Origin: Syntrophomonadaceae bacterium
GTDB taxonomy: Bacteria; Bacillota; DSM-12270; Thermacetogeniales; Thermacetogeniaceae
NCBI GenBank assembly: GCA_012840385.1
Contig: DULK01000048.1
Location: 1 to 64,000, forward strand
Direction of reading: 5' to 3'
Length of the DNA stretch: 64,000 nt
Shown here: piece after piece, positions 2,866 to 61,166 of the stretch
Layout of the letters: each line of letters opens with the position of its first letter
Numbering within the stretch: position 1 is the stretch's first letter
Notes under the pieces: generated by a model
What the model was told of the DNA's origin: nothing
Seen by the model: only the letters and a program-made list of their open reading frames with translations
Databases searched by the model: none
Position numbers and translations under genes: made by a program

Positions 2866-2977
2866 AGTTACACCAATCTAAACACGTATACTCTGAAACC
2901 CTTGGTCTATGCGGGCTTATGTTTCTTTGTTTGAAATAGATGTGTTAGTAACTATAAAACTAAAAGGGGATGTTAAA

Positions 2978-4342: not shown

Positions 4343-4455
4343 TAATGATGATTATTAGATGATAAAGTGGATATCTGGAAACACGTGACTCCGGTGCGGC
4401 TTTTCACTCTCAAATCAACCGCATATTAATAGTTTAAAAACGGGGGGTGAGGTCT

Positions 4456-10338: not shown

Positions 10339-10501
10339 CAATTCTAAAGGGGGGGATTACTCAAGACAAGCATATAAATAATTTATCCTCTGTATTGGCG
10401 AAACACGCAGGAAGGGGGATGGATAAAACTACATAATTCTGGTAGTCTGAGCGTTAAAAGTGGGTTTTGGGGTATCAAAAATCACACTAGGGGGAATTTG
10501 T

Positions 10502-12016: not shown

Positions 12017-12718
12017 ATGAAAGAACAAATTCTAGAACGTTTATGCAATGCCATTGTCGAGTGCGACGTCGAACAAGCGGCCAAAGTGGCGCAGGAAGCG
12101 CTGGATGCAAGTATCCCGGCCATAGAAGCTATCCAAAATGGAGCGGCTAAAGGTCTGGATATCATTGGGTCAAAGTTCAACTCCGGCGAAGCGTATTTAC
12201 CGGAATTAATCCTGGCCGGTGATGCGATGAAAGCGGTCTTTGACGTGCTTTCAAAAGCTCTGAAGGAGGAAAATGCGGATAGTAGTGCTCAACTTGGTAA
12301 GGTTGTGATCGGTACAGTATCGGGGGACCTGCATGATATTGGTAAAAACATCGTTGCAGCACTATTAGCTGTCAATGGTTTTGAAGTTTACGATCTCGGC
12401 ATTAACGTTGAGCCGAAGACTTTTGTTCAAAAAGCTGAGGAAATAGGTGCAACGATTATAGCCGCGTCAACATTATTGACTACATCGATGCCTTATCAGC
12501 AAGATATAGTTCAGTACTTAATTGATTCAGGTCTTAGGGGCAAGTATTACTACGTGGTGGGCGGTGGTCCGGTAACCGCTGACTGGACAATAAAAATCAA
12601 GGCCGACGGGCACGGGTATACCGCAACAGATGCAGTGGAGGTATGCAAGAGATTGGTTAGATCCGGACAAACTCCGGGAACTTTTGAACCGGTCATTCTT
12701 GAATATTATCAAGGTTAG
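12017..12718 (+). CDS. corrinoid protein (MtmC/MtbC-like) A
   Basis: A 233-residue methyltransferase corrinoid protein. Residues 1-85 form the four-helix cap domain (B12-binding_2), and residues 90-215 the Rossmann-like B12-binding domain. The cobalt-ligand motif DxHxxG is present as DLHDIG, with His106 as the lower axial ligand. It should carry a methyl group on Co(III) between a substrate methyltransferase and a tetrahydrofolate methyltransferase. It is followed 11 bases later by an MtmB-family gene, as in methylamine systems of methanogens. A similar protein is at 23312. Start ATG 12017 follows AAGGAGGAG. Confidence 0.95.
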   Translation: MKEQILERLCNAIVECDVEQAAKVAQEALDASIPAIEAIQNGAAKGLDIIGSKFNSGEAYLPELILAGDAMKAVFDVLSKALKEENADSSAQLGKVVIGTVSGDLHDIGKNIVAALLAVNGFEVYDLGINVEPKTFVQKAEEIGATIIAASTLLTTSMPYQQDIVQYLIDSGLRGKYYYVVGGGPVTADWTIKIKADGHGYTATDAVEVCKRLVRSGQTPGTFEPVILEYYQG

Positions 12719-12729
12719 GAGTGAACTCG

Positions 12730-14130
12730 ATGTCATTGAGAACTGAGAAGATATTGAGGAGTCTTGACCGGGCCTATAACGGACCCATCTGTTCGGTTAA
12801 GGATTGGGATACCAAGGTTATACCGCAAACAATCAGAGCCATACTGAAGAAATACGGGCTTGAAAAAACCTGCGATCTGGAAAACCCGATCAACTGCGAT
12901 GACGATCTGGCCGATCAGTTTTTTAGAGCCGGTTGGGAACTGGCGTTGGAACTGGGGATGCTCAACGTTGAGACAGAGAGAATCATCAAGATTACAGAGG
13001 AGGAATTGATCGACACATTAAAGCATAAGCCGAAGGAAATCATTTTGGGAAGCGGAAGCGACCAGGTTATACTCAAGGCGAGGAAACCCGAGGATCCGAC
13101 TCCTCCATTACTGGCTGCATCTCTGGGAATTGTTGTATCAGAGGAATTATATGTACCAATCGTTGAAGGTATCGTTAAATATAAAAAATTGGTTGACGTT
13201 CTTCACGGGCCTTCCCTTGCAACGGTTTATGGCAGGAAAATCCGTTCCGGGACCCCCTACGAGACGCTGATGGGCGGTTATGAGGCAGAGTTGAGGTGCG
13301 AGGCTCTCTGGCGAGCCGGCCGGCCTGGTATGGCCCATACCGGTATTGCAGGAGCGGTCACTGAATATGGCCATTTAGGGGGTGCCGCCGCCATAGGAGG
13401 ACCCGGTAATGTGACGATGGCCCTTTGCCCCGTAGAACTGAAAACCAATTTCGCGGTCTTTCACCGGATTATGATGGCCATCAATAATAATATGCGCATC
13501 CGGGCAGGCGGATTCTCTTACATCGGCGGTTACGCGGGACCGCCGGAAGGCGCAGCATTGGCCAACATTGCCGTCGACTTGCTCATTGCTACCATCCTTG
13601 ATAGCGATTACACAAGCTCCTACGTTTATGATATCCAGTTGCTCGGGAACTGTGGTCGCAAGGCTCTCTGGGCCAACAGTATCGCTATTCAAGCTGTTAG
13701 TAGAAACACCAACCTGATCCGCAACAAGATTGTGAACGAGACTGGCGGCCCATGTACTGACATGTTCATGTATGAGGCGGCAATTGGTTTAATGAACCAT
13801 TGTGTATCAGGCGCATCAAAGACCACGCAGCCGAGATCTGCAGGCGGCAAGTTAACGGATTATCTGACGCCGATGGAAGCTTGGTGGTGCGGTGAGGTAT
13901 TTAAGTCTTGTGCAGGTATGACCCGTAAGCAGGCCAATGAAATTGCCAAGAAGGTTCTTCCCAAGTACGAAGAGCGCTTGAGTAACCCGCCGAAAGGCAA
14001 GAGTGTTCTGGAATGCTTTGATCTGAAGGAAATGAGACCTTCACCGGAGTACCAGAAGCTTTATCTGGACATCAGGAAAGAACTCATTGACTTAGGAATG
14101 CCTCTGGACAAGGTATACGAAGAGTTCTAA
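12730..14130 (+). CDS. MtmB-family methyltransferase lacking pyrrolysine (A)
   Basis: A 466-residue homologue of monomethylamine:corrinoid methyltransferase MtmB (458 residues in Methanosarcina). End-to-end resemblance includes the N-terminal CSVKDWDTKVIP, the glycine-rich GGYAGPPEG and GGPCTDMFMYEAA segments, and the C-terminal PPKGKSVLECFD. The residue at the pyrrolysine position (after GMAH, compare GMGV-Pyl-G in MtmB) is Thr204, codon ACC at 13339-13341, with no in-frame amber codon. The substrate is therefore probably not monomethylamine by the known mechanism. ATG at 12730 is chosen because GGAG lies 8 bases upstream; a GTG at 12721 is the alternative. Transcribed with the corrinoid gene. 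An N-methylated purine-like substrate is my inference from the neighbours. Confidence 0.88.
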   Translation: MSLRTEKILRSLDRAYNGPICSVKDWDTKVIPQTIRAILKKYGLEKTCDLENPINCDDDLADQFFRAGWELALELGMLNVETERIIKITEEELIDTLKHKPKEIILGSGSDQVILKARKPEDPTPPLLAASLGIVVSEELYVPIVEGIVKYKKLVDVLHGPSLATVYGRKIRSGTPYETLMGGYEAELRCEALWRAGRPGMAHTGIAGAVTEYGHLGGAAAIGGPGNVTMALCPVELKTNFAVFHRIMMAINNNMRIRAGGFSYIGGYAGPPEGAALANIAVDLLIATILDSDYTSSYVYDIQLLGNCGRKALWANSIAIQAVSRNTNLIRNKIVNETGGPCTDMFMYEAAIGLMNHCVSGASKTTQPRSAGGKLTDYLTPMEAWWCGEVFKSCAGMTRKQANEIAKKVLPKYEERLSNPPKGKSVLECFDLKEMRPSPEYQKLYLDIRKELIDLGMPLDKVYEEF

Positions 14131-14163
14131 AAATTGTCGGCAGTGTTAGACGATATATAAGCT

Positions 14164-14199
14164 ATGTGAACAACTTCCTATCCCCCTAGTTGTTCACAT
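14164..14199. repeat. 12-bp hairpin after methyltransferase A
   Basis: Perfect inverted repeat 14164-14175 / 14188-14199 (ATGTGAACAACT arms) with a 12-base loop. No T-tract follows on the plus strand, so it may stabilise the transcript end or be a protein site. Confidence 0.5.
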
Positions 14200-14222
14200 G
14201 GTATAAAAAAATGGCTCGGTAA

Positions 14223-14255
14223 TATCAATATGATATACAATATATCATATTGATA
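14223..14255. repeat. 15-bp perfect AT-rich palindrome
   Basis: TATCAATATGATATA at 14223-14237 is repeated inverted at 14241-14255 around a CAA centre. A related core (TTATCATATTGATAA) recurs at 14404-14418. This looks like a repressor or activator operator family, although no assigned regulator is known. Confidence 0.5.
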
Positions 14256-14308
14256 AACACTCAAGGCTATCTGGATAAATGCTTAGGGAATGTGTATTGA
14301 TTCCGGGA

Positions 14309-14335
14309 AGCTGCCCGTCGGGCAGCTATTTTTAT
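14309..14335 (+). terminator. intrinsic terminator of methyltransferase unit A
   Basis: Stem AGCTGCCC/GGGCAGCT (14309-14316 with 14320-14327), three-base loop, followed by ATTTTTATT. It lies about 180 bases after the MtmB-like gene and is the best terminator for that transcript. Confidence 0.8.
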
Positions 14336-14855
14336 TGGACTTTTTGCCGTAATTAATAATGAAGAAAATCTATAATAGCACAACAAGGTACGTTTCAAAG
14401 AGTTATCATATTGATAAGTTTTTCGAAGGACAAGTCGCTAGAGATCGTATAAATCACTTGTTTTAAAGCTTGGCATAAATCTTGCTGTTAGATTACATGG
14501 GAGTGAATTGTCGATGTTTACCACTTCAACCGGTTTCTTGGAGAACTTCTCTATTTCGTGAAAAATACTTACGTATTATAGATTATAGGGGGGTTCTCCA
14601 AGAAAGTTGATAATTAGTAATTAGCTTAATGCAACAAAAACTCATGATGATCAACATAGAACCCTTTTATTCTTAACATCTCTCCTCAACAGGATGTGTG
14701 GCGGGAGTGGATTGATTTGCACTGCCGGGTGTTTGTTTAAAGGAGTCGGGACTATTGTTAAGTTTAAGAAGTAGACAGTAGTGAGTGGCTCAAAGAGATG
14801 AGATACTATTAAGTATACCTGTATACATACCTCAAAGGGTTTGCATAATTAGGTG
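14336..14855. repeat. gene-free stretch with a long-armed inverted repeat
   Basis: No convincing gene lies here. The clearest structure is a 13-bp perfect inverted repeat: TTTCTTGGAGAAC at 14534-14546 and its complement at 14593-14605, with 46 bases between that contain a smaller AATAC/GTATT hairpin. It could be a structured RNA, a decayed mobile-element end pair or an operator. A partial copy of the TATCATATTGATAA motif is at 14404-14418. Confidence 0.4.
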
Positions 14856-14963
14856 CAGGGGCTTATAATAGTAGGCAAAAACATAAAGTAACTTTAGACC
14901 ATAACGAATGTATCCAGCGAGGCAATGAAGCCCCTGTTTGAGTGCTGTATCTCAAATGTGGGG
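14856..14963 (+). promoter_or_regulatory. possible alternating hairpins in leader of importer B
   Basis: CAGGGGCTT at 14856-14864 can pair with AAGCCCCTG at 14928-14936. The latter segment can instead pair downstream (CCCCTGTTTGAG 14931-14942 with CTCAAATGTGGGG 14951-14963, imperfect). Mutually exclusive pairings about 160 bases before an importer operon are what an attenuator would look like. There is no strong T-run after the second hairpin and no known riboswitch consensus, so this is tentative. Confidence 0.3.
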
Positions 14964-15122
14964 CTTATTTGTTTGAGAAACATACTGGTAGGCATGTTTT
15001 TTAAAGATATCCAATGAATAGAGAGCCATTTTTTATCTTTGACCTGGCAACATTGATGCTTAAGGCGCAACATTTCCTCTGAAATGTTTTCGATGCTGAA
15101 TCGGGGAGGACAGTAGGAAGAA

Positions 15123-16649
15123 ATGGAACAGGCAACTGTTGAGATGAGGAATATTACAAAGCGGTTTCCAGGGGTTTTAGCCAATGAAAGGGTAAACTTT
15201 AAGGTAACTGCTGGTGAAGTGCATGCCTTGCTCGGTGAAAACGGGGCGGGTAAAACCACCTTAATGAGCATTCTTTGCGGTTTATATAGGGCTGATGAAG
15301 GAGAAATTTTTATTAAGGGAAAAAAGGTGTCCTTTAGTTCTCCGAGAGATGCAATCAATATGGGAATTGGTATGGTTCACCAGCATTTTCGGTTGGTACG
15401 TCCTTTTACTGTAGCTGAAAATATACTGTTGGGTTCAAACGATGCCGGTTTTATACTAGACATGGACAGAGTGGAAAAAAAAATCGAAAATCTTTCAAAA
15501 AAGTACGGACTGAAAGTAGATACCAAGGCCAAAGTGTGGCAGCTTTCCATTGGTGAGCAACAAAGGGTGGAAATTATAAAAACCCTCTATCAGGGTGCGG
15601 ATATTCTCATACTCGATGAGCCGACGGCTGTACTTACTCCCCAGGAAGCCGAGGAATTGTTTAAGGTACTACAGCAGATTGCTCAGGACGGAAAAGCCGT
15701 TATTCTTATTACCCATAAATTAAATGAAGTCATGAGTGTAGCTGATAGAATTACGGTATTGCGAAATGGTAAATTTGTAGCTACTGTGGAAAAAAAGAAG
15801 ACGAACATTCATGAACTGACAAAATTAATGGTAGGGCGAGAGATGCCGGAAGTAAAGAAAGCGGAGGATTTTTCTCCTGGAGGGGTAGTCTTGGAGTTAA
15901 AAAATGTTAATGCTCTTAACGATAAAGGTTACCCCGCCTTGAGGAATTTTTCACTCTCTGTTCATGAAAGGGAAATTGTAGGGATAGCTGGGGTTGCCGG
16001 TAATGGGCAGCGTGAATTGACTGAAGTGATTAATGGTCTTAGGCTTGCGGAATCCGGGGAAATCTTCATTTTGGGCAAAAATATGACTAATCGTCCAGCG
16101 CAGGAAATAATTGACGCCGGTGTGGCTTTTATTCCTGAAGACAGGTTGGGGATGGGGCTTGTACCCAATTTAAATATTTTAGATAACATCATTTTAAAAA
16201 GCTACCGGAAAGGTTTGTTTTTGAAGGGACCTTTTCTCGACTGGTCATCGATAAGGGAAAAAGCGGAATCTCTAGTTAAAGAATTTGACATCAAAACCCC
16301 AGGTCTAAACCATCCCGTAAAAACAATGTCAGGGGGTCACTTGCAAAGATTGCTGCTTTCGAGAGAAGTTCATTCCTCCCCTAAACTGATCGTTGCGGTC
16401 TATCCCACGCGGGGACTTGATGTCAGCGCTGTAGAGTTTATTCACCATGTTCTTTTAGCGCAAAGAGCGAAAGGCGCGGCAATTTTAATGATTTCCGAGG
16501 ACCTGGATGAAATTTTTAAACTTGCCGATAGAATTGCAGTCTTATATGAGGGTAAAGTCATGGGAACCATGCCTGTAAAAGAGGCAGATTTAAGGGAGAT
16601 CGGCTTGCTGATGGCCGGGGTAGACCGGGGAGGGGAAATGGCATGCTAA
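15123..16649 (+). CDS. BMP-type nucleoside/purine ABC importer, ATPase B
   Basis: A 508-residue double ATPase paralogous over its whole length to the one at 6801. First domain: Walker A GENGAGKTT, signature LSIGEQQRVEI, Walker B ILILDEPTAVL. Second domain: GVAGNGQRELTE, MSGGHLQRLLLSRE and a degenerate Walker B (VAVYPTRGLDVSA), as usual for this family. It starts the second importer operon and overlaps the next gene by 7 bases. The start ATG follows GGGGAGGACAGTAGGAAG. Confidence 0.93.
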   Translation: MEQATVEMRNITKRFPGVLANERVNFKVTAGEVHALLGENGAGKTTLMSILCGLYRADEGEIFIKGKKVSFSSPRDAINMGIGMVHQHFRLVRPFTVAENILLGSNDAGFILDMDRVEKKIENLSKKYGLKVDTKAKVWQLSIGEQQRVEIIKTLYQGADILILDEPTAVLTPQEAEELFKVLQQIAQDGKAVILITHKLNEVMSVADRITVLRNGKFVATVEKKKTNIHELTKLMVGREMPEVKKAEDFSPGGVVLELKNVNALNDKGYPALRNFSLSVHEREIVGIAGVAGNGQRELTEVINGLRLAESGEIFILGKNMTNRPAQEIIDAGVAFIPEDRLGMGLVPNLNILDNIILKSYRKGLFLKGPFLDWSSIREKAESLVKEFDIKTPGLNHPVKTMSGGHLQRLLLSREVHSSPKLIVAVYPTRGLDVSAVEFIHHVLLAQRAKGAAILMISEDLDEIFKLADRIAVLYEGKVMGTMPVKEADLREIGLLMAGVDRGGEMAC

Positions 16650-17731
16650 GTGTATTTGAGAAGAAAAAAAGGATTTTGAGATTTGAAAGGAAATTAACCA
16701 TTTCACCCCTTTCCTATTTAATTGTGCTAGTAATTTCAATCCTTCTTGCTTTAGCGGTTGGCGCCATTTTCATCCGGATTAACAGTTTTAATCCTTTAGA
16801 AGTCTACCAATTTATGTTTGAGAGTTCCTTTGGTTCGGCTTATGGTATTTCAGAGACAGTCGTGAAGGCAATTCCCTTGATGCTGGCGGGATTAGGGGTG
16901 GCTTTGGCTTTTCGTATGTTGCTCTGGAATATCGGCGCAGAAGGCCAGATTTACATGGGAGCCTTTGCTGCGACTGCGATAGCATTATATTTACCCCGTT
17001 TACCTGCCGGTATCATGATTACGGCTATGTTGTTAGCCGGTTTTGCGGGAGGAGCTATATGGAGTCTTATTCCGGGAATAATGCGTGCACGGGCCGGGGT
17101 TAATGAGATTATTACAACCTTGATGTTTAATTATATTGCGATTTTATGGGTTAATTACCTTGTATTCGGGCCTTGGAGCGATCCCGCCAGCTTCAACCAA
17201 CCAATAACCCCAAAGTTTCCCGTTTCGGCTATGCTACCCACCCTACCAGGGTCCCGGATTCATCTGGGAATATTTTTTGGCTTAGTGGCTGCTATAGTTT
17301 TGTACCTGGTATTAACACACACCCGCTGGGGATACGAGGTAAGAGTTACAGGTGAAAGTGAAAGTGCGGCCAAGTACGCTGGGATTAACATTACACGCAA
17401 CATTATGCTTGTCATGCTTATCAGCGGGGGGTTAGCCGGTCTTGCCGGGATGGCAGAGGTGGCAGGCGTTTTAGGACGGCTGCAACAAAATATTTCCCCG
17501 GGCTACGGATACACGGCTATTTTGGTTGCTATTCTTGCAAAGTTAAACCCTTTGGCAGTAGTCATTGTCTCTTTTCTTTTCAGCAGCTTGTTGGTAGGCG
17601 GATATGCCGCTCAGACCATCGGTGTCCCGGCAGCGATAGTTTCCACATTGCAGGGCGCCATTTTGTTTTTTGTTCTAGCAGGAGAGTTTATGGCTAGATT
17701 CAGACTAAGGTATGTGCGAAGGGGGGATTAG
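16643..17731 (+). CDS. BMP-type ABC importer permease B1
   Basis: A 362-residue permease paralogous to that at 8309, with hydrophobic helices from about residue 22 and the conserved loop ISGGLAGLAGMAEVAGV. The start overlaps the ATPase gene end, with GGGGAGGGG 7 bases before it. It should form the pore of importer B with the next gene. Confidence 0.92.
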   Translation: MLSVFEKKKRILRFERKLTISPLSYLIVLVISILLALAVGAIFIRINSFNPLEVYQFMFESSFGSAYGISETVVKAIPLMLAGLGVALAFRMLLWNIGAEGQIYMGAFAATAIALYLPRLPAGIMITAMLLAGFAGGAIWSLIPGIMRARAGVNEIITTLMFNYIAILWVNYLVFGPWSDPASFNQPITPKFPVSAMLPTLPGSRIHLGIFFGLVAAIVLYLVLTHTRWGYEVRVTGESESAAKYAGINITRNIMLVMLISGGLAGLAGMAEVAGVLGRLQQNISPGYGYTAILVAILAKLNPLAVVIVSFLFSSLLVGGYAAQTIGVPAAIVSTLQGAILFFVLAGEFMARFRLRYVRRGD

Positions 17732-17734
17732 CCC

Positions 17735-18673
17735 ATGGATCTGTATTCCATCCTGACGGCAATCTTATCAGCAACGATTATTGCGGGAACCCCAATACTC
17801 TTTGCCAGTCTAGGAGAACTATTGACTGAAAAAGCAGGTGTGTTGAATCTCGGTGTAGAGGGCATGATGATGATCGGCGCTGTTGCGGGATTCCTGGTTT
17901 CTTTTAAAACCATGAATCCGTGGCTTGGTATTATCGCAGCTATGCTTGCAGGGGGCTGTTTAAGTTTGGTACATGCTTTGATGTCTGTTTCCTTGCGAGT
18001 CAATCAAGTCGTTAGCGGGCTTGCCTTGACCATTCTAGGTACCGGCCTTAGCGCTTTTTTGGGCAAGTCTATGATCGGTATTCAAGCACCGGTTACTTTC
18101 AACAAAATGTCAATCCCGGTTTTAAGCAAGATCCCCTTCATCGGCCCTATTCTTTTTCAAAATGATATTCTGGTTTATTTGAGCATCATCCTGGTTTTAG
18201 CCTTTTGGTTTTTGATCTATAAAACAAAGCATGGCTTAAGGTTGCGTGCCGTTGGAGAAAACCCCGCTGCTGCCGATGCTATGGGCGTTAATGTATTTGC
18301 ATTTCGTTATTTATATGTAGTCATAGGGGGGATGCTGGCAGGTTTAGGAGGAGCTTACCTTTCTTTGGTTTACACCTCTACGTGGCTTGAAAATATGACG
18401 GCGGGGAGGGGGTGGATTGCGGTTGCCCTCGTGATTTTCGCTACGTGGAACCCTCTGCGTGCTTTATTGGGAGCCTACATTTTTGGTGGTGTAGAAGCTT
18501 CGGTATTCCGGTTGCAGGCTTTAAACATTCTCAGGATATCGTCATTCTTTTTGAAAATGCTGCCTTACATTTTAACAGTGATTGTGCTCTATTGGGCTAC
18601 CCGTGAAACAGTGCGAAAACGAATTGGAGCCCCGAGTGCTTTAGGACTTCCCTATGAGCGCGAAGAGCGGTAA
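17735..18673 (+). CDS. BMP-type ABC importer permease B2
   Basis: A 312-residue permease paralogous to the one at 9403: the N-terminal TPILFASLGELLTEKAGVLN and the LNLGVEGMMMIGA segment are shared with the family. The start lies 3 bases after the preceding stop, with a GGGGGG Shine-Dalgarno inside the previous gene. Confidence 0.92.
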   Translation: MDLYSILTAILSATIIAGTPILFASLGELLTEKAGVLNLGVEGMMMIGAVAGFLVSFKTMNPWLGIIAAMLAGGCLSLVHALMSVSLRVNQVVSGLALTILGTGLSAFLGKSMIGIQAPVTFNKMSIPVLSKIPFIGPILFQNDILVYLSIILVLAFWFLIYKTKHGLRLRAVGENPAAADAMGVNVFAFRYLYVVIGGMLAGLGGAYLSLVYTSTWLENMTAGRGWIAVALVIFATWNPLRALLGAYIFGGVEASVFRLQALNILRISSFFLKMLPYILTVIVLYWATRETVRKRIGAPSALGLPYEREER

Positions 18674-18758
18674 CCCTGCGGCAGGGTACATGAATTTCAA
18701 GTGTTGTGCGGTATGTGTTTCTTTAGTTAGATAAATTACATTGGGGGAGGGAAAAGTT

Positions 18759-19874
18759 ATGAAGTGGAGATTTCGGTCGATCATCTTTGTAACACTGCTG
18801 ATTTTATGTCTAGGACTTTTGGCAGCCGGTTGTGGCAGCAAACAGACTAATTCCGGACAGGGAGAAAAGAAGGATAAACTCAAAGTAGCCTTTGTCTATC
18901 CTGGCGCAAAGGACGATTTTGGATGGGCCACAACTCAAGAAAATGCCAGGAAAAAGCTCATGAAAGAATTTCCGGATGTTCAGTTCACCGCAGTAGAAAA
19001 TATTCCGGAAGGTAGTGACTCCGCACGCACCTTTACGCAACTATGTGAGCAGGGCTATAAATTAATCATAGCTTCAAGTTTTGGGTACCAGGATGCCGTC
19101 CACGAGGTTGCGAAGAAATACCCCGATGTCAAATTTCTTCACTGTGTCGGGACCAAAACTGCGCCCAATGTATCCACCTATTTCGGAAAAATGTACCAGT
19201 TAAGGTACCTCTCCGGTATTTTAGCAGGAAAGATCACCAAGTCCAACATTATCGGTTACACAGCAGCATATCCTGTTCCGGCATGTATAAGCGGTATAAA
19301 TGCTTTCACACTGGGGGTTAAGTCTGTAAATCCCAATGCTAAAGTAAAGGTCGTCTGGACTAATACCTGGTATGACCCGGCTGTAGAAAAAGAGGCGGCT
19401 AAGAGCCTCCTGGATGCGGGGGCCGATATCATTTCCATGCACCAGGATACCCCCCAGGGGCTCATTGCTGCGGCGGAACGAGGTAAATACGGCTTTGGTT
19501 ATGATAATGACATGACTTCCTTTGCTCCTAAAGCGGCTATCACATCCCTGTACTGGGACTGGACCAAGATTTTTGCACCGGAAGTCCAGGCCGTTTTGGA
19601 TGGTACCTGGAAAAGCCAGCGAATATTTAAGGGTCTGGAAGTCCCCGGCTTCTTAAATCTGGCTCCTTATGGGCCCATGGTTCCGGAAGATGCCAAGAAG
19701 TTGGTTGAGGAGAAAAAGGCCCTGATGGAATCACAAAAATGGGATGTCTTTACAGGGCCAATTAAGGACCAGAATGGTCAGATACGTGTGAAAGAGGGAG
19801 AAAGGCTCTCAGATGACGATATCTGGGGCATGAACTGGCTTGTTGAAGGCGTGGAAGGGAAGCTTCCCCAATGA
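18759..19874 (+). CDS. BMP-family substrate-binding lipoprotein B
   Basis: A 371-residue BMP-family lipoprotein with a signal peptide and lipobox LLAAGC near residue 25, followed by the binding fold starting KVAFVYPGAKDDFGW. ATG at 18759 is used because GGGGGAGGG precedes it. It differs from lipoprotein A in several ligand-region segments (for example SSFGYQDAVHEVAKK against TSFNYGDTVKKLAKE), which would fit a different but related ligand. Last gene of importer B; a terminator follows. Confidence 0.93.
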   Translation: MKWRFRSIIFVTLLILCLGLLAAGCGSKQTNSGQGEKKDKLKVAFVYPGAKDDFGWATTQENARKKLMKEFPDVQFTAVENIPEGSDSARTFTQLCEQGYKLIIASSFGYQDAVHEVAKKYPDVKFLHCVGTKTAPNVSTYFGKMYQLRYLSGILAGKITKSNIIGYTAAYPVPACISGINAFTLGVKSVNPNAKVKVVWTNTWYDPAVEKEAAKSLLDAGADIISMHQDTPQGLIAAAERGKYGFGYDNDMTSFAPKAAITSLYWDWTKIFAPEVQAVLDGTWKSQRIFKGLEVPGFLNLAPYGPMVPEDAKKLVEEKKALMESQKWDVFTGPIKDQNGQIRVKEGERLSDDDIWGMNWLVEGVEGKLPQ

Positions 19875-19906
19875 GGTAAATAAAAAGACAGCTAAAAAAG
19901 TTTTTA

Positions 19907-19955
19907 AGGGGATGGTTCTGATTTTTGCAGAACTGTCCCCTAAGTAAAATTTTTT
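19907..19955 (+). terminator. intrinsic terminator after importer B
   Basis: A 14-bp stem with two G-T pairs (19907-19920 with 19928-19941), loop ATTTTTG, followed by AAGTAAAATTTTTT. The next ~220 bases to 20177 are AT-rich and hold no recognisable gene. Confidence 0.75.
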
Positions 19956-20177
19956 CCCAAAATTTTAATGTTGTAGAGTAGTTTTCGGAAACAGTTAGAA
20001 AGACCCAGGGAAATAATAGCAGAAGCATCATATACAACAAGGGCAGGAAAATAGAAGTAAGCCAAAAACAATCAAAGAGGAGAATAAAAGCAAAATCAAC
20101 TTAAAGTTTTAAAAATCACCTAAAAAAGGCAGCAAAAGACCAAGCCTTTTAGAAAAAGGTAATAACTGGCAGTATAT

Positions 20178-21619
20178 TTAATAAGGAACAGAAAAACTTA
20201 AGCGCCTTAATCGGGGTGCCCAGCACCTCAGACCAGACATCGAAGCCCATATTTTAGATTGCTCCACCCAAGCGTCAAAATGTTGATTCATGGCAGCGAA
20301 ATGGGCTCGCCAGTACCAGGCCCCTTAAGGCTTCTCACCTGGCAGCGTTCCAGCTCGTAATCTTTCTTTTTACGGCTGAAGGAACGTTCCGAGCCGGACC
20401 GAAGCTTGAAAACGTTCCTCCAGGCCTTGGAGTTACGAGGGGTAGGGGTAAAGAAGCGCAGATTATCATAGGGTTTGGTGTACACCGTACGGCCATAGGC
20501 AGACGGCGAACACGGCGATTCACAAAGAACCTGACATTTAGAGCGCTTGCTGCCGGCAACAGCAGGGCAGCGCCATTTTAAGCGATTACGTTTTTTCTGA
20601 AAGCCCCAAAAAACCATATCAAAGCCCTTGGGGCACGAAGGGATACCGTAATCATTAAAGGCAACGGGTGGAGCATAAGGAAAATGCCCTTTGTTTTTGG
20701 GGGTTAAATCGATAAAAGGTTCAACCGACTAATAGTTTAAGAGTTCATAAAAAGAGTAGACATCATGATCCGAATCATCCAAGAACCTGCCCAACTTTAG
20801 CTGGGGATATACCTGCATAAACTCAGACAAAGACACAACAGCCATTACCGAATCATGGCGCTGGGCCTGGGCAAAACGAAGATAAACCGGCAAGCTATGG
20901 GAGCTACCGACAGCATTCAGCTCATAAAGCATATAGCAGTAGAAATACTCCTGGCGGTAACTGTCCCAGCCCTAGCGGGCCTGGGGGTCGGAGAAACGTA
21001 GTGGACAATCGCAGTTAAGAACACCGTTCTTGCGGCAATCACAGACCCTGGCACCGTAATGGCTGGCGCCGGTACGAACAGAAGTGCCGTCACCGGCGAG
21101 GACTAGATCAAGAGGGTGTGGTATCAAGCCCAACTGCAGCGAGCGGTAGACAACGCAGCGGGCGAAAACCAGATGGATCAACCTTTTGGCGCGAAGGGGG
21201 AAAGGGTCCCTACCCTTGACGGCATAAGCGACAAGCTTCTCCACGATTCCAGGGTGCTTAACCGGCAGTTTTTCACCTGGCTTGAGCCTCTTTGACGGTT
21301 TTCTAGAAGGTTTTACCAAGCGTTTGCGGCGTTGGGTCTGAACATCATCATCCTCAAGCCAGAAACGGTTAAGGAAATCGTAAAAAGTACCGACATCGGG
21401 AGTATTGTTGGGTTCGAAACCGGACAGCACAGCCAGGATACTATCACAACGCGGCATACTGACCCACCGGGTAATGCCGAACACCTTCTGGTCCGACATC
21501 AAAATTAATGAACACAAAAGATCGATGGGATCGAACTCAACAGGTCTTCCGAAGACCGGGAAATGAGGCATTAAAAGAGGGATTGCGGGGTCCAAATCAA
21601 GCAGCCAGAGTTTAGACAG
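20178..21619 (-). pseudogene. decayed DDE transposase (IS4-superfamily type)
   Basis: One minus-strand frame reads through as a transposase of a type common in Clostridia (FGRPVEFDPIDLL near the start, DGTSVRTGASHYGA, GRTVYTKPYDNLRFFTPTPR, ERSFSRKKKDYELERC). It is broken by two in-frame TAG codons (20969-20971 and 20726-20728), both where tryptophan is expected (R-stop-GWDSYR and NY-stop-SVEPFIDL), i.e. TGG to TAG changes. A one-base shift near 20317 moves the C-terminal WYWRAHFAAMNQHFDAWV into another frame. No usable start codon is evident. The element separates importer B from the second amidohydrolase and is inactive. Confidence 0.85.
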
Positions 21620-21872
21620 GGGTTAAGCAAACGACTCTATTCTGTGAGGGTCACCGTTCCATAGCACTGGGACCCAAGAGCGGAGAGTCTCATAAACGGT
21701 TAATTTTCGACATCAAGCAGCTTCTATGCAAAATATTTATTGTTTTAAGCGTTATCGAATATTATCGCCTATCATCAAAATGGAGGTGAAAAAAGATAAG
21801 TCCTCCTCCGAGGGCTTGGAAGCAGTAAGTTAGGACTTTCCGAAAACATTCTTGTAATGAAGGAGGGATTAC

Positions 21873-23198
21873 ATGCTGCTGATCGGGAATGGCCCGCTAT
21901 TATCCCTGGTCCCAGGCTCGCCGTATCAACAAGATGGCGCAGTAGCCGTGGAAGGTGATCTCATTGTTGATGTCGGGCCAATTCAAGAACTAAAGGCGCG
22001 TTATCCTGAGGCGGAATGGCTCGATGCCAGGGGTATGTTGATCATGCCCGGTATGACCAACACCCACATGCACCTTTACAGCACTTTCGCCAGAGGGATG
22101 GCTTTGAAGGATCCACCGCCCGGCAATTTTATTGAAATATTGCAGAGGCTCTGGTGGCGTCTGGATAAGGCTTTAACCCTTGAAGATGTATATTACAGCG
22201 CCCTCATTCCTCTGGTAGATTGTATCAAAAGTGGTACGACAACTATCGTAGACCACCATGCCAGTCCCCACGCTGTACAGGGCAGCCTGGAGATCATCGC
22301 AAGGGCAGCCGAAGAAACTGGTGTGCGAACCTGCCTGGCCTACGAGGTTTCCGACCGTGACGGCGAGGAAATAATGCGTCAGGGTATTGAAGAAAATATC
22401 ATGGCTATAAAAAAGTACCGAGGAAAGGAAGGCCTTTTGTCAGCCACCTTTGGCCTGCATGCTTCCTTAACCCTATCCGACGCAGCCCTCGCGGCCTGTA
22501 GGGAGGCCGAAGCGGATGTGGATAGCGGCTTTCATATTCATGTTGCCGAAGGAATCGAGGATGTGGAAAACGCCCTTGAACGTTCCGGCAAGCGTGTGGT
22601 GGAACGCCTGGCGGACCATGGTATCTTAGGTCCAAAAACCATAGCTGCCCACTGTGTTCATATAACAGAAAAAGAGATTTCCATTCTAAAGGAAACCGGA
22701 GCCATGGTCGTCCACAACCCAGAGTCCAATATGAGCAATGCGGTGGGTTGTTCTCCGGTTGGTGATTTGCTGGAGGCAGGAGTACCGGTCGGGCTTGGGA
22801 CAGATGGTTATACCAGCGACATGTTTGAATCGCTAAAAGTGGCAAACTTGTTGCGCAAACACGCTTCGGGGAACCCCAGTAGCGGCTGGGCGGAAGTACC
22901 TGCAATGGCCTTTGCCAATAACCGCTTTATCCTGTCCAGGTTTTTCCCCCATCCCGTGGGCCGGTTGGAACCGGGGGCCTACGCCGATATCATCCTTGTA
23001 AACTATAAGAGTCCGACCCCCCTAAATGCAGATAACTGGTTTGGCCACCTGCTTTTTGGCTTCAACGGAGCCCTGGTGGATACGACAATTGTAGGCGGAA
23101 AAGTTCTCATGAGGGGACGAGAGCTGCTTTATCTGGATGAAGAGGCAATTGCTGCCAAGGCCCGGGAATTGGCAGCCCGGATGTGGGAACGGTTCTAA
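21873..23198 (+). CDS. ssnA: SsnA-type amidohydrolase
   Basis: A 441-residue amidohydrolase matching the SsnA group (putative aminohydrolases linked to purine and selenium-dependent molybdenum-hydroxylase clusters). Metal-binding motifs: TNTHMHLYSTFARGM near residue 60, FHIHVAE near 215, AHCVHITEKE near 255 and GLGTDGYTSDMFE near 305. It is cytoplasmic and should hydrolyse a C-N bond of a ring amine or cyclic amide. The start ATG has GGAGG 8 bases before it. It heads the second methyltransferase/hydroxylase set and parallels the amidohydrolase at 2978. SsnA's precise reaction is not established to my knowledge. Confidence 0.88.
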   Translation: MLLIGNGPLLSLVPGSPYQQDGAVAVEGDLIVDVGPIQELKARYPEAEWLDARGMLIMPGMTNTHMHLYSTFARGMALKDPPPGNFIEILQRLWWRLDKALTLEDVYYSALIPLVDCIKSGTTTIVDHHASPHAVQGSLEIIARAAEETGVRTCLAYEVSDRDGEEIMRQGIEENIMAIKKYRGKEGLLSATFGLHASLTLSDAALAACREAEADVDSGFHIHVAEGIEDVENALERSGKRVVERLADHGILGPKTIAAHCVHITEKEISILKETGAMVVHNPESNMSNAVGCSPVGDLLEAGVPVGLGTDGYTSDMFESLKVANLLRKHASGNPSSGWAEVPAMAFANNRFILSRFFPHPVGRLEPGAYADIILVNYKSPTPLNADNWFGHLLFGFNGALVDTTIVGGKVLMRGRELLYLDEEAIAAKARELAARMWERF

Positions 23199-23311
23199 AG
23201 TAGACACATCGTGGATTGGGGAAGGTTTAATTTTTATTATTGTTAAGCAACAATGTATCATAATATGAAACAATTACCTGTTTTAAATATTAAAAAAGGG
23301 AGTGAAGATGC

Positions 23312-23980
23312 ATGGGAGATATTTTTAACAGGATTTCAGAAGCAGTCAGGTATGGGCAAAGGGATGAGATCGAAAAGCTTGCCGATGAAGTTATCGCCAA
23401 TAAAATCAACCCTATCGATGCCATTCAGAAAGGGGGAGTGGATGGATTAAAAAAATTAGGGGATGCTTTTGAAAACCTCGAAGCTTTTCTGCCGGAGCTT
23501 ATGGCCGGCGGCGAAGCCATGAAACTTTTGATAAATAAATTGACTCCTTATTTGGAGAGCGATAAAAGCGCACTTGAAGGTACAGTGGTTATTGGAACGG
23601 TCAAAGGTGACCTTCATGATATTGGAAAGAATTTAGTTGCAACGCAGCTTGCCGTAAACGGATTCAATGTCATTGACCTGGGTGTTGACGTTAGCAACAA
23701 TAAATTTATCGAAGAGGCTGAAGCAAATAAGGCAGATATAATAGCTCTTTCATCCCTGCTTACGACTTCTGCTTATTACATTCAAGAGTTTATAGAAAGA
23801 TTAGAAAAGGATGGCTTGAGGTCAAAGTACAAGATTATTGTCGGTGGAGGGCCGATTGAGCCTGAGTGGGCAAGAGAAATTGGCGCGGATGGATATTCTA
23901 GAACTGCTGTTGGCGCAGTGAAAGTGTGCAAAGAATTAATGAAGCAAGATAAAATTACCGAGATCATAATTGGTGACTAA
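23312..23980 (+). CDS. corrinoid protein (MtmC/MtbC-like) B
   Basis: A 222-residue corrinoid protein with the helical cap (residues 1-80) and B12-binding domain. The cobalt-ligand motif is DLHDIGKN near residue 100. It is paralogous to the protein at 12017. Start ATG 23312 follows AAAAAAGGGAGTGAAG; another ATG four bases earlier is out of frame. The MtmB-family gene begins 15 bases after its stop, so the two are co-transcribed and are likely partners. Confidence 0.95.
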   Translation: MGDIFNRISEAVRYGQRDEIEKLADEVIANKINPIDAIQKGGVDGLKKLGDAFENLEAFLPELMAGGEAMKLLINKLTPYLESDKSALEGTVVIGTVKGDLHDIGKNLVATQLAVNGFNVIDLGVDVSNNKFIEEAEANKADIIALSSLLTTSAYYIQEFIERLEKDGLRSKYKIIVGGGPIEPEWAREIGADGYSRTAVGAVKVCKELMKQDKITEIIIGD

Positions 23981-23995
23981 AGGGAGGGATCAGGG

Positions 23996-25387
23996 TTGAG
24001 TTCAGCAGTTAGAGTTTTAAAAACATTGGAAAAGGCCAGAACAGGCGAAAGATGTACAGTGAAGGAATGGGACTATGAAATTGTTCCGAAGACCCTGAAT
24101 GAAATTTTGAAGAAATATAATTTGGAGAAAACATGTGATATCAACAAACCAGTCAATGAAGATATGGAGCTTGCTGACAGATTCTATCAGGCTGGGCTGG
24201 AAGCAGCCTTACGGCTTGGTTTTCTCTGCGTGGATACAGAAACTATCGTAAAGGTCAAAGAGGAAGAACTACTGAGGAGTTTACAACAGGTACCGTCTAG
24301 TTTTACTATCGGTGAGGGAAGCGAGCAGGTAACCGTCAAGGCAAGAAGACCGAGCGACGGGCAACCCCCGGTATATTTTGGACCATTGTCAATCCAAATG
24401 AACGAAGAGTACTATGTTCCCGTAGCACAGGGGATCTTGATGAGCCGCCTGGTGGATGGCCAAGAGGGTCCTTCGCTTGATACGGTTATGGACTGCCCCT
24501 TATTGGCGAATAGCCCTTATGAAAGCTTTGCTGGTATTTACGAGGCACGTCTGAGGAAAGAGGCTCAGTGGAGAGCAGGCCGTGTAGGTATCGGCAATGC
24601 TATAGTGGCCAGCAGCAGCACTGAATATGGCTTTTTAGCCGGTTTTGCATTATATAAACCACCCCAGATCGTTTTGTGTTTGAACCCGGCTTCAATGAAA
24701 ATAAACTATGTCAACTTGCATAAAACTATTGTTGCCCATGAATACGGGCATTATGTAAGGACCGAATCACCTACTATGATCGGGGGATATACGGGTGGCC
24801 CCGAAGGAAGCGCATTGGCTTCCATTGCAACTGACTTATTGCAGTATCATTTCCATGGTACCCATCTGGCAGGTTCTCCGACCTATGATCTCCGCTATGC
24901 TGGAAACTGTGGGCGTCATGCATTGTGGGCACAAACCATTGCCAGTCAAGCGATCTCCAGGAACACCAATATTCTTATGAACAAGACAATCAACCAGGTT
25001 TCCGGACCGTGCACCGAAATGTTCTTCCTTGAAACTATAGCCGGATTTGTAGCAGCAGGGGTTTCTGGCCTTGAATTTACCATCAGTCCAAGATCGGGTG
25101 GTGGAAGGCACAAGAACCACCTCACGCCCTTCGAAGCCTGGTACAGTTCGGCGGTATTCAAGGGTTCTGCCGGGCTCAGTGCTGAGAAAGCCAACGAAAT
25201 TCTCAATGAGGTATTACCGAAATACGAGAAAGAACTGAGAAACCCACCTAAGGGAAAGAGTTTCCCGGAATGCTTTAATGTAAAGACATTACAACCTACC
25301 GAGGAATACCTGAAAATGTATCTTAGAATGAGAGAATATGCTATTAGTCTGGGTATTCCTATGCCTCCTGATGGCGTAGTGTCCTAA
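23996..25387 (+). CDS. MtmB-family methyltransferase lacking pyrrolysine (B)
   Basis: A 463-residue MtmB-family protein, co-linear with the one at 12730 (both have STEYG/VTEYG after the key site, GGYTGGPEG, RNTNILMNK, SGPCTEMFFLE, NPPKGKSFPECF). At the pyrrolysine position it has Ala202, codon GCT at 24599-24601. The start is TTG at 23996 behind GGGAGGGATCAGGG. The two paralogues differ strongly around the key residue (GMAHTGIAGAV against GIGNAIVASSS), which suggests different substrates. It should methylate corrinoid protein B. The flanking SsnA and xanthine-dehydrogenase-type genes point to a purine-like methyl donor, by inference. Confidence 0.88.
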   Translation: MSSAVRVLKTLEKARTGERCTVKEWDYEIVPKTLNEILKKYNLEKTCDINKPVNEDMELADRFYQAGLEAALRLGFLCVDTETIVKVKEEELLRSLQQVPSSFTIGEGSEQVTVKARRPSDGQPPVYFGPLSIQMNEEYYVPVAQGILMSRLVDGQEGPSLDTVMDCPLLANSPYESFAGIYEARLRKEAQWRAGRVGIGNAIVASSSTEYGFLAGFALYKPPQIVLCLNPASMKINYVNLHKTIVAHEYGHYVRTESPTMIGGYTGGPEGSALASIATDLLQYHFHGTHLAGSPTYDLRYAGNCGRHALWAQTIASQAISRNTNILMNKTINQVSGPCTEMFFLETIAGFVAAGVSGLEFTISPRSGGGRHKNHLTPFEAWYSSAVFKGSAGLSAEKANEILNEVLPKYEKELRNPPKGKSFPECFNVKTLQPTEEYLKMYLRMREYAISLGIPMPPDGVVS

Positions 25388-25542: not shown

Positions 25543-26037
25543 ATGGAAAAGGTTACGGTTAATTTTACCTTAAATGGTGAACGTCAAAGTATCACCGTCA
25601 ATCCCAATCTAACACTTCTTGAAGTGATTAGAGATATTTTTGAGTTAACCGGAACCAAAGAAGGTTGCGGGCATGGTGAATGTGGGGCATGTACGGTTCT
25701 TCTGAATGGTAAAGCAGTTAATTCTTGCCTGGTATTGATCTCCCAGGTGGAGGGGAAAGAGGTAACTACTATCGAGGGTTTAAGTAAAGACGGCTCGGTG
25801 GATCCGCTGCAAGCCAGCTTTATAGAAGCCGGAGCCATTCAGTGCGGATACTGCACGCCGGGCATGATCATGTCCGCCAAGAGTCTGTTATTAGAAAACA
25901 GCAATCCATCAGTCGAAGAAATTAAGACAGCCATATCTGGAAACCTTTGCCGCTGTACTGGTTATGCCAAGATAATAAAGGCCATTCAGCTTGCAGCCAG
26001 GAATGTTAAAGCAGGGGAGGCAGGAGGTGAGGTATAG
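25543..26037 (+). CDS. xanthine-dehydrogenase-type 2Fe-2S subunit
   Basis: A 164-residue iron-sulfur subunit that carries two [2Fe-2S] clusters and passes electrons from the molybdenum site to FAD. Both cysteine sets are complete: CGHGECGACTVLLNG plus a later Cys for the plant-ferredoxin-like cluster, and QCGYCTPGM with CRCTGY for the C-terminal cluster. Start ATG at 25543 follows AAGGAGGT. Its stop overlaps the GTG of the molybdenum subunit. Confidence 0.95.
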   Translation: MEKVTVNFTLNGERQSITVNPNLTLLEVIRDIFELTGTKEGCGHGECGACTVLLNGKAVNSCLVLISQVEGKEVTTIEGLSKDGSVDPLQASFIEAGAIQCGYCTPGMIMSAKSLLLENSNPSVEEIKTAISGNLCRCTGYAKIIKAIQLAARNVKAGEAGGEV

Positions 26038-28316
26038 TGTCTGAGTTCAAGTGGGTCGGAAAGGCATATCCCCGTGTTGATGGTTACGACAAGGCAACGG
26101 GCATGGCGAAGTATGTAACAGATCGCTTTTTTCCAAACATGCTTTGGGGGGCCGTCTTAAGAAGCCGGTATCCTCATGCTTTGATCAAGGGGATTGATAC
26201 GAGCAGAGCCGAAGCCTCTAAAGGGGTTGTAGCTGTTCTCACACACAAAGATGTTCCTGGTTTAAATGCTTTCGGAATTATCAACCAGGATCAGCCGGTC
26301 TTGTGTAAAGACAAGGTTAGATATCTCGGGGATTCAATAGCTCTTGTCCTTGCAGAGAGCAAAGAATGTGCATATAGTGCTCTTGACCTTATTGAAGTGG
26401 ACTACGAGCCACTCCCGGTGGTTTCCGATATGGAAGATGCCCTTAAGACTAATATCAAGATCCATGAAAAAGGGAACATTATTGAGCATGTAAGGATCAC
26501 CAAAGGTGATGTCGAAAAAGGTTTTAGAGAAGCCGACCTGATAGTTGAAGAAACCTACTACACCCCCAGGCAAATGCATACGTTCCTTGAAACCGAGGGT
26601 GGGGTAGCAACCATCGACCAAGATGGAAACATCACCCTGTTTGTAGGCTCCCAATACCCGAACCGGGATATAATTCAGATTGCCCGTTCCTTGAATTACC
26701 CTATGGAAAAGATCCGTGTCATTGCTCACTACCTGGGTGGAGGATTTGGAGGTAAGGACGAAATTACAGCACAGATCCTGCTTGCCCTGGGGACATTAAA
26801 GACTGGCCGCCCGGTGAAGATTGTTTGGAACCGCGAAGAGTCCCTAATTGCCGGCCAAAAAAGACTGCCGATGAAAATTACTCTAAAGACAGGTGTAACC
26901 AAGGACGGGAAATTGCTGGCGAATAAGGCAAGAATCATCGCCGATAATGGGCCCTATACGTGCCTGGGATCCGCTATTATGAAACTTGCTGTGGAACATG
27001 TTAGCGGTCCCTATTACGTCCCACATACAGATTTGGAAGGATTTAGTGTATATACTAACAATTGTATAGGTTCAGCTTTTAGAGGCTTCGGTGCTACCCA
27101 GGCTACTTTCGCCATCGAGTGTCAGTTGGATCTGATCAGCAAAAAGATCGGGATTGATCCTCTGGAACTCAGGTTGAAGAATGCATTGCGAGATTACCAG
27201 AGTGCCAACCTGGGCCACATACCCTCTCCCAGTGTAGGGATAGCGGATACTCTGGAAACCTTGAAAAACCATGATCTCTGGAAAAATAAGGGATATTATC
27301 TTAAAACCGATAAGCCTTATCTGAAGAGGGGAATAGGCCTTGCATGTTCCCACCAGGGATGTGGCCTCGGCTCCTTCTTCCCGGATTATGGAGCGGCCAC
27401 GATTATTCTACTGCCTGGCGGTAGATTTGCTCTGAAGATAGGCTGCCCGGACCTAGGGCAGGGAAACGGCACAGCCTTTGTTATGATTGCTTCCGAGGTT
27501 TTATGTTGCAACCCCGAAGATATCGATCTAGAGATTGGAGATACCAGAAGCACCCCGGACTCAGGAAGCACGAGCGCTTCCCGTACTACCTATACTGGAG
27601 GGAGAGCTATTATCCAGGCTGGCAATAAGATGAAAGCAAATCTTTTTGCAGAAGCCTCAAGGATGCTGGGAGTGTCCCCGGATTCTTTGGAACTAAGACC
27701 GCATTGTGTCGCTGTTAAAGATTCTGATTTAAAGGTTACCTATGCTGAAATTGCCGAAAGATTGAGCAAAGAAAACCGTTCCCTGGAGTGCTACGCCAGG
27801 TTTGACTGGCCTACTGCCGACCTGGAGTTTAAAGAGGCTCTTGGCCTGCCGCATTTTATCTACAGCTATATATCTGAAATGGCACTGGTGGAAGTAAATG
27901 TTCTAACGGGTGAGGTCAGAGTATTAAAGGCGGTAGTCAGCCCTGATGCTGGTCGCATTATCAACAGGCAGGGTTTGGAAGGACAGGCGGAGGGAGGTAC
28001 AGTTATGGGAATGGGGTATGCCCTGATGGAAGAAATCCGACAAGTCGATGGACACTATATGAACAAGGATCTTTCAACCTATATCATTCCGACTGCCAAG
28101 GATGCCCCTGAGATTGAGACTGTTCCGGTGGAAAAATTGGAAGCGTCAGGTCCTTTCGGAGCTAAAGGTATCGGCGAAGCGGTATGCAACCCGATCACTC
28201 CTGCCATTATCAATGCTATCAGAAACGCCTTGGGGATTAACATTACTAAAATTCCTGCGACTCCTGAGGATATTTATTTCATGGCTAAGAACAAATTCGA
28301 TCTTCTGCGCTCTTAG
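26037..28316 (+). CDS. xanthine-dehydrogenase-family molybdenum subunit
   Basis: A 759-residue molybdenum-cofactor subunit. Family landmarks: GGGFGGKDE near residue 240, SAFRGFGATQ near 345, and the catalytic-glutamate segment GAKGIGEAV near 715. The GTG start overlaps the previous stop (TAGTG). It is paralogous to the solo subunit at 4456, with near identical C-terminal blocks (GQAEGGTVMGMGYA in both). With the small and FAD subunits it forms a complete hydroxylase, likely acting on a purine or a similar N-heterocycle. Confidence 0.95.
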   Translation: MSEFKWVGKAYPRVDGYDKATGMAKYVTDRFFPNMLWGAVLRSRYPHALIKGIDTSRAEASKGVVAVLTHKDVPGLNAFGIINQDQPVLCKDKVRYLGDSIALVLAESKECAYSALDLIEVDYEPLPVVSDMEDALKTNIKIHEKGNIIEHVRITKGDVEKGFREADLIVEETYYTPRQMHTFLETEGGVATIDQDGNITLFVGSQYPNRDIIQIARSLNYPMEKIRVIAHYLGGGFGGKDEITAQILLALGTLKTGRPVKIVWNREESLIAGQKRLPMKITLKTGVTKDGKLLANKARIIADNGPYTCLGSAIMKLAVEHVSGPYYVPHTDLEGFSVYTNNCIGSAFRGFGATQATFAIECQLDLISKKIGIDPLELRLKNALRDYQSANLGHIPSPSVGIADTLETLKNHDLWKNKGYYLKTDKPYLKRGIGLACSHQGCGLGSFFPDYGAATIILLPGGRFALKIGCPDLGQGNGTAFVMIASEVLCCNPEDIDLEIGDTRSTPDSGSTSASRTTYTGGRAIIQAGNKMKANLFAEASRMLGVSPDSLELRPHCVAVKDSDLKVTYAEIAERLSKENRSLECYARFDWPTADLEFKEALGLPHFIYSYISEMALVEVNVLTGEVRVLKAVVSPDAGRIINRQGLEGQAEGGTVMGMGYALMEEIRQVDGHYMNKDLSTYIIPTAKDAPEIETVPVEKLEASGPFGAKGIGEAVCNPITPAIINAIRNALGINITKIPATPEDIYFMAKNKFDLLRS

Positions 28317-32810: not shown

Positions 32811-32860
32811 GCTGTTGCGGGGCGAGTACTTGATAATCCTTGAATCGGGAGGCTCTTGCT

Positions 32861-61134: not shown

Positions 61135-61166
61135 AGCAGATATGGAATAAAAAGGAGGGCTTGCTG

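Follow-up and report, generated by a model that had tools for sequence, protein, structure and literature searches.

Two pyrrolysine-free MtmB-family methyltransferases in a purine-catabolic locus of a Syntrophomonadaceae bacterium are candidate purine N-demethylases

Results

Two corrinoid methyltransferase modules among purine genes

We analysed a 64,000-nucleotide stretch of the genome of a Syntrophomonadaceae bacterium (GCA_012840385.1, contig DULK01000048.1, positions 1 to 64,000; hereafter the window). It carries two genes for methyltransferases of the MtmB family that lack pyrrolysine (Pyl), which we call A (12730-14130, 466 amino acids) and B (23996-25387, 463 amino acids), and whose surroundings suggest purine N-demethylation as their function. 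These genes, and all others described in this section, are on the + strand. Gene A starts with ATG behind a purine-rich AGGAGTG stretch, and gene B starts with TTG. A check of the open reading frames (ORFs) found no in-frame stop in A or B, TAG included, and both genes are complete. Against the sister species, A has a dN/dS of 0.051 and B one of 0.034, indicating purifying selection and thus that both genes are maintained. The two proteins share 47% identity, and each is about 28-30% identical to Methanosarcina barkeri MtmB1.

Each gene is preceded by one for a corrinoid protein with B12-binding domains. The partner of A (12017-12718; B12-binding and B12-binding_2) ends 11 bases before A and has a DLHDIG motif (DxHxxG); its closest NCBIfam models are MtgC and pyl_corrinoid, both below cut-off. 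The partner of B (23312-23980) ends 15 bases before B, and the two partners are 47% identical. The probable methyl acceptor component is a methyl-tetrahydrofolate:corrinoid methyltransferase (MeTr, 29340-30152), with a Pterin_bind domain and an NF005719 score of 366.6 bits (cut-off 259). The pairs at 12017-14130 and 23312-25387, together with this MeTr, would supply the MT1, corrinoid protein and MT2 components of a methyl transfer system.

The B pair lies within a run of genes on one strand with short gaps, from ssnA to the MeTr. The SsnA amidohydrolase (21873-23198; TIGR03314, 687.9 bits, cut-off 455.5) is encoded directly upstream of the pair. Downstream are the subunits of a xanthine dehydrogenase (XDH)-type molybdenum hydroxylase: the iron-sulphur subunit (25543-26037, an ORF assigned by eye), which overlaps by one base the Mo subunit (26037-28316; best NCBIfam model PucD/selenium-dependent XDH, PF02738), and the FAD subunit (28333-29184, by eye, with a 90% orthologue in the sister genome G001). 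Upstream of A we found a MoeA-like molybdopterin-binding protein (184-1224, by eye, kept in G001), a PucR-family purine catabolism regulator (1225-2865; PF07905 PucR N-domain, PF13556 HTH_30), an 8-oxoguanine-deaminase-like aminohydrolase (2975-4342; NF006055, 528.3 bits, just under the cut-off of 532; best PDB match 7WW2, 8-oxoguanine deaminase) and a second XDH-type Mo subunit (4447-6723; NCBIfam profile, PF02738). These are followed by the ATPase and two permeases of a BMP/PnrA-type ABC transporter (6801-10338, by eye) and a solute receptor (10460-11614; PF02608). A second BMP-type ABC transporter with its receptor (15123-19874; receptor at 18741-19874, PF02608) lies between the two modules.

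The closest solved relative of the first receptor is AtzT (6PI5, 322 bits; guanine/2-hydroxyatrazine), which was reported with guanine bound at a Kd of 110 nM (PMC6834077). When mapped on AtzT, the receptor has Trp/Trp as the ring-stacking pair (Tyr45 and Trp194 in AtzT) and retains Ser97, Phe98 and Thr139, while Glu165, Asn169, Asn218 and Asn220 are replaced by Cys, Ala, Tyr and Asp. It is predicted to be a flat-ring receptor with edge recognition altered relative to AtzT. The second receptor has its best PDB match in 3S99, which was modelled with adenine. These relatives also bear on the idea that A and B demethylate some other N-methyl heterocycle, for example N-alkyl s-triazines or compounds of the N-methylhydantoin/creatinine type. 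In its favour, AtzT as a 2-hydroxyatrazine receptor and triazine hydrolases are among the closest solved structures to the receptor and the deaminase, and the receptor differs from AtzT in its polar edge residues. We consider such substrates unlikely, since AtzT itself holds guanine, 3S99 was modelled with adenine, and PucR, SsnA and XDH, with the xanthine permease and adenine deaminase found near relatives of A and B (see below), indicate purines.

Family, fold and active-site columns

Profile, alignment and fold all place A and B in the MtmB family. PF05369 matches both over their whole length (262.8 bits for A and 275.4 bits for B; cut-off 25). The AlphaFold2 model of A (pLDDT 95) has TM-scores of 0.92-0.94 to 1NTH/1L2Q and that of B (pLDDT 94) has 0.91-0.93 to MtmB structures; across 1L2Q, 1NTH and 1TV2 the models score 0.91-0.94 to the MtmB TIM barrel and at most 0.5 to the next best fold. 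The MttB superfamily (PF06253), which includes MtgB, resembles A and B in having Pyl-free members with a different substrate that work with a corrinoid protein and a tetrahydrofolate methyltransferase. It is a different family, however: the profile search of A and B gave PF05369 only, with no PF06253 match, and MttB/MtgB structures reach TM-scores of at most 0.5 with the models.

Alignment by phmmer with MtmB1 (1L2Q, X at Pyl202) places Pyl202 at Thr204 of A (GMAH-T-G, codon ACC) and at Ala202 of B (GIGN-A-I, codon GCT). The original prediction, made by eye from the DNA, had put both genes in the MtmB family with these residues in place of Pyl and no TAG at the amber position, and each of these points is borne out here. 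It had given the two residues equal weight, which the wider alignment corrects. Thr is invariant at this column in the A clade (11 rows, signature TG[VI]AGA); the B clade has mostly Met, with Ala in the window and the sister species only, so that on column comparison Ala202 is a local variant of Met and not typical of its clade. A search of the genome for PylS gave nothing above the curated cut-off, with two weak matches far below it.

Four further columns, Glu229, Glu259, Gln333 and Tyr335, are invariant across 12 Pyl-MtmB rows; we take these residues to serve Pyl in the MtmB structure. In A they are Met, Gly, Ile and Asn, and in the B clade, in the same order, Leu, Gly (Glu only in B of the window and its sister), Thr and Asn, as compared by column equivalence. 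A and B thus depart from MtmB sensu stricto in lacking a TAG-encoded Pyl202 and the machinery for it, and both clades depart from it, almost wholly, at the four conserved columns. Because these columns are replaced as well as Pyl, the substrate of A and B is likely to be other than monomethylamine. To this extent the earlier suggestion of an MtmB counterpart of MtgB, acting on a different substrate, stands; it had missed the main clue to that substrate, the purine-catabolic neighbourhood.

A simple amine could still be the donor if an enzyme such as an N6-methyladenine-type deaminase freed methylamine or the like from N-methylated nucleobases and a Pyl-independent mechanism then demethylated it. 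The MtmB ancestry of A and B would fit such a route, as would the presence of one deaminase next to A and of another next to a further non-Pyl MtmB. We give it a very small chance, as Pyl is held essential for monomethylamine chemistry and is replaced, as are, almost wholly, the columns Glu229, Glu259, Gln333 and Tyr335.

A and B define a subfamily

In a maximum-likelihood tree of 49 rows, the non-Pyl rows form one group apart from Pyl-MtmB (SH-aLRT 100), and the A and B clades are united in a clade of 24 rows (SH-aLRT 100). The order among the other non-Pyl rows is uncertain because of long branches. A profile built from A and B (A1) sets the subfamily clearly apart, scoring its full-length members at 529-941 bits and other MtmB-family proteins at 314 bits or less. 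Scanning named genomes with the A/B alignment yielded 7 loci, and the census was widened to 399 genomes of the phylum. A third non-Pyl MtmB clade, with Gly at the Pyl column (L065, L082 and L101), adjoins genes for an 8-oxoguanine-deaminase-like protein and a BMP receptor.

Purine genes recur around the subfamily

We searched for purine markers within 10 kb of MtmB-family genes, with loci dereplicated at 90% identity before counting. Markers were defined by similarity to proteins of the window and of 'Candidatus Formimonas warabiya' strain DCMF at fixed score limits, and two of the families involved, PucR and BMP, are broad. At least one marker was found at 16/17 A/B loci and at 0/7 Pyl-MtmB loci (Fisher 2.3e-5), and at least two marker classes at 13/17 and 0/7, respectively (Fisher 9.5e-4). 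Among the other non-Pyl MtmB loci, 7/13 had at least one marker and 4/13 at least two classes, suggesting that some of these clades may share the purine theme.

The corrinoid protein, MtmB and MeTr genes stay together in genome G003, in DCMF and in others, and the BMP transporter is swapped for other nucleobase permeases in relatives, a non-orthologous replacement. The context comprises XDH, SsnA, a deaminase, PucR and MeTr in G003, PucR, a deaminase and an NCS2 permease at locus L021, and XDH in Syntrophaceticus; in Syntrophaceticus schinkii the subfamily genes lie split across the ends of contigs. Genome G066 has several copies with XDH, a deaminase, and NCS1 or BMP, one of them inside a YgeW/YgeY-like run. 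Genomes carry several A/B-subfamily paralogues, a pattern that position-specific demethylases would produce.

At the level of whole genomes, ssnA is present in all of the genomes with an A/B-subfamily gene (13/13, including one with a broken subfamily copy and G170, whose SsnA match is a fragment below cut-off) as compared to 89/399 overall (22%; hypergeometric 1.6e-9). Counted by genus the figures are 8/8 and 56/267 (2.5e-6). In several genomes ssnA is on a different contig from the subfamily gene, so the co-occurrence is not merely adjacency. The broken copy, at about 10000-11300 of L102 (G079), is an A-type remnant with several frame stops and a partial PucR nearby, and ssnA is still in that genome.

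In DCMF, the A-type gene is accompanied by PucR, MeTr, a deaminase, a pbuX gene whose xanthine permease product scores over cut-off, and NCS1-type permeases. Adjoining those permeases is another non-Pyl MtmB with a full-score adenine deaminase. This module (L020:2285-7043), whose MtmB has Ile at the Pyl column, also encodes an MtrH-like protein and a corrinoid protein, along with an NCS1-type permease and the adenine deaminase, and is perhaps a methyladenine system. Two B-type loci of the same genome have XDH with an SsnA-like protein and BMP, and XDH with an NCS2 permease. A non-Pyl MtmB, Ga0180325_111810, was the protein most raised in dichloromethane-grown DCMF (PMC9768040), which raises the question of a role in C1 halide metabolism. 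By rough interpolation of locus tags, 111810 would be near 1.88 Mb, close to the A orthologue (1.867 Mb) and to another non-Pyl MtmB (1.874 Mb); the matching of tag to position was done here, and it cannot separate these two neighbours. Most of the genomes that carry the subfamily do not belong to known dichloromethane users, and a halide role leaves the purine context unexplained, so we see only a very small chance that it accounts for A and B.

The original prediction knew of no characterised non-Pyl MtmB. One was published in March 2026: MtqB, which acts on tetramethylammonium and choline (PMC13044021). MtqB resembles A and B in being a non-Pyl MtmB with its own corrinoid protein, and it shows that such proteins can be active demethylases. 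By the published description, on which this comparison is based, it differs from them as an enzyme of archaeal methanogens, placed near the Pyl-MtmBs, with a quaternary amine as substrate. Apart from the Pyl and MtqB clades, the 1,061-sequence MtmB tree in the same paper is made up of non-Pyl proteins whose functions are unknown (PMC13044021). If A and B were bacterial counterparts of MtqB acting on tetramethylammonium, choline or like cations, the purine genes would be accidental neighbours. The sole characterised non-Pyl MtmB does use quaternary amines, as do the other non-Pyl methyltransferases MtgB and MtcB. We regard this as very unlikely, as the association with purine genes recurs over many genera with the transporters swapped, no betaine/choline transporter was recognised among the neighbouring ORFs, and the A/B clade is on long branches away from the Pyl-MtmBs near which MtqB is described.

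The remainder of a purine pathway in the genome

Three MoCoBD_1 proteins are encoded in the genome, two in this locus and the third at the end of another contig, C71. Beside the third are genes for a pyridoxal phosphate (PLP)-lyase-like protein, YgeY, a carbamoyltransferase, carbamate kinase and XDH maturation-like proteins, and the same contig end has a dihydroorotate (DHO)-dehydrogenase-like (UacX-type) protein and a D-hydantoinase. SsnA, YgeY, D-hydantoinase and carbamate kinase score over cut-off, and the other members were assigned by similarity. In G001, the MoeA end of the locus runs straight on into genes for hydantoinase, a DHO-dehydrogenase-like protein and XDH, and from this synteny alone C71 probably adjoins the start of the contig of the window (C36). 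The reductive uric acid pathway consists of XdhD, YgfK/UacX, SsnA, HyuA, YgeW, YgeY and YgeX, with SsnA opening the ring (PMC12507026). With SsnA accompanied by XDH, DHO-dehydrogenase, HyuA, carbamoyltransferase and YgeY, the gene set of this genome is, as judged by similarity, that of the reductive pathway with UacX replacing YgfK. As in the described cluster, SsnA is part of the set, here beside B, with the rest on the contig placed adjacent by synteny; unlike that cluster, which is without methyltransferases, this one has corrinoid methyltransferase modules built in (PMC12507026). Acetyl-CoA synthase was also found in the genome.

Other features of the window

Between A and the second transporter is a perfect inverted repeat, TATCAATATGATATA-N3-TATATCATATTGATA (14223-14255). 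A third exact copy of TATCATATTGATA lies 160 bases further (14404-14416), and the three sites, which are kept in G001, appear operator-like. A hairpin with a T-rich tail was seen by eye near 14308-14337, 3' of A. Transposase-like ORFs (by eye) are at 20972-21595 and 36938-38241; the first is between the second transporter and ssnA, which suggests that the locus was perhaps assembled or interrupted by mobile elements. Directly after the MeTr, 30459-33640 holds genes of a molybdate/tungstate-type ABC transporter along with a DUF364-like ORF (by eye, kept in G001), in keeping with the need of the XDH enzymes for Mo. A ferredoxin-domain ASKHA protein (61161-63023, + strand, by eye) resembles RACo, a reductive activator of corrinoid proteins, and its homologues are beside MtmB genes at L016, L083 and L099. 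A scan of the window for Rfam riboswitches gave none above thresholds; only a T-box leader was found, near the right end (63114-63331, 113.5 bits).

Discussion

We propose, with a probability of roughly 0.6, that A and B are corrinoid-dependent, O2-independent N-demethylases (MT1) of methylated purines that pass the methyl group to tetrahydrofolate. Candidate substrates are methylxanthines and methylguanines, or a closely related N-methyl purine; given the deaminase next to A, methylguanines could be used as well as methylxanthines, and A and B would differ in the ring position or the base on which they act. The methylpurine would be imported by a BMP-type transporter (by an NCS1 or NCS2 permease in relatives) and held by A or B inside the MtmB barrel, where the absence of pyrrolysine would leave a cavity, with its N-CH3 presented to the Co(I) of the adjacent corrinoid protein. 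SN2 attack of Co(I) on the methyl would then release the purine N-anion. The conjugate acid of this anion has a pKa of about 7.5-10, like the phenolates displaced by O-demethylases, and the amide ion from methylamine is not comparable. With so good a leaving group, the activation by pyrrolysine that a poor amine leaving group needs would not be required. A MeTr such as that at 29340-30152 would move the methyl to tetrahydrofolate and into the Wood-Ljungdahl pathway; the MeTr and acetyl-CoA synthase are present, and flux through the pathway may be presumed. The bare purine would be deaminated, hydroxylated or dehydroxylated, and opened, steps for which the deaminases and the XDH-type, UacX-like, SsnA and HyuA/YgeW/YgeY-type genes are present.

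Several observations weigh against this proposal. Gene neighbourhood indicates a pathway and not a reaction, and another N-methyl heterocycle could enter by the same transporters. The leaving-group argument comes from general chemistry, the XDH subunits score below equivalog cut-offs, and the MeTr and RACo-like proteins are assigned to the A/B system by proximity. Markers are sparse at some A/B loci: L078 has none, L074, L073 and L081 have one class each, and L064 and L067, on short contigs, have MeTr only. The genomes in the ssnA counts are not phylogenetically independent.

We found no published corrinoid-dependent demethylation of purines, and no link between MtmB and purines, in the open-access literature, a search that leaves most subscription papers uncovered. 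What is new is the proposed substrate class, as the fold and the type of system are already known. MtmB itself (M. barkeri MtmB1, 1L2Q/1NTH) shares with A and B the family, the fold, the full-length profile and an adjacent corrinoid protein, and A and B differ from it in the Pyl and other replaced columns, the low identity, the purine neighbourhood and a genome with no PylS match above cut-off. The aerobic N-demethylases of methylxanthines, NdmA, NdmB and NdmC, are Rieske oxygenases that depend on O2, release formaldehyde and occur as position-specific paralogues. The proposal for A and B resembles that route in its overall outcome, with several paralogues each taking N-methyl groups from a specific position of the purine; it differs in an unrelated fold and in methyl transfer to cob(I)alamin without oxygen.

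For a whole branch of the MtmB family, spread over anaerobic bacteria of the phylum, we lean slightly towards the same assignment, in which these proteins would be cob(I)alamin-dependent purine N-demethylases that work without oxygen, so that the methyl group serves as C1 substrate while nitrogen and carbon come from the ring. If the proposal is true, the Pfam-based label 'monomethylamine methyltransferase' should not be taken as evidence of methylamine use, a large branch of the family would gain a testable function, and a family known for pyrrolysine would work without it through a better leaving group rather than through activation of the substrate. It would also provide an anaerobic counterpart of the oxygenase route for caffeine and methylxanthines, of relevance to anaerobic digesters, groundwater and guts.

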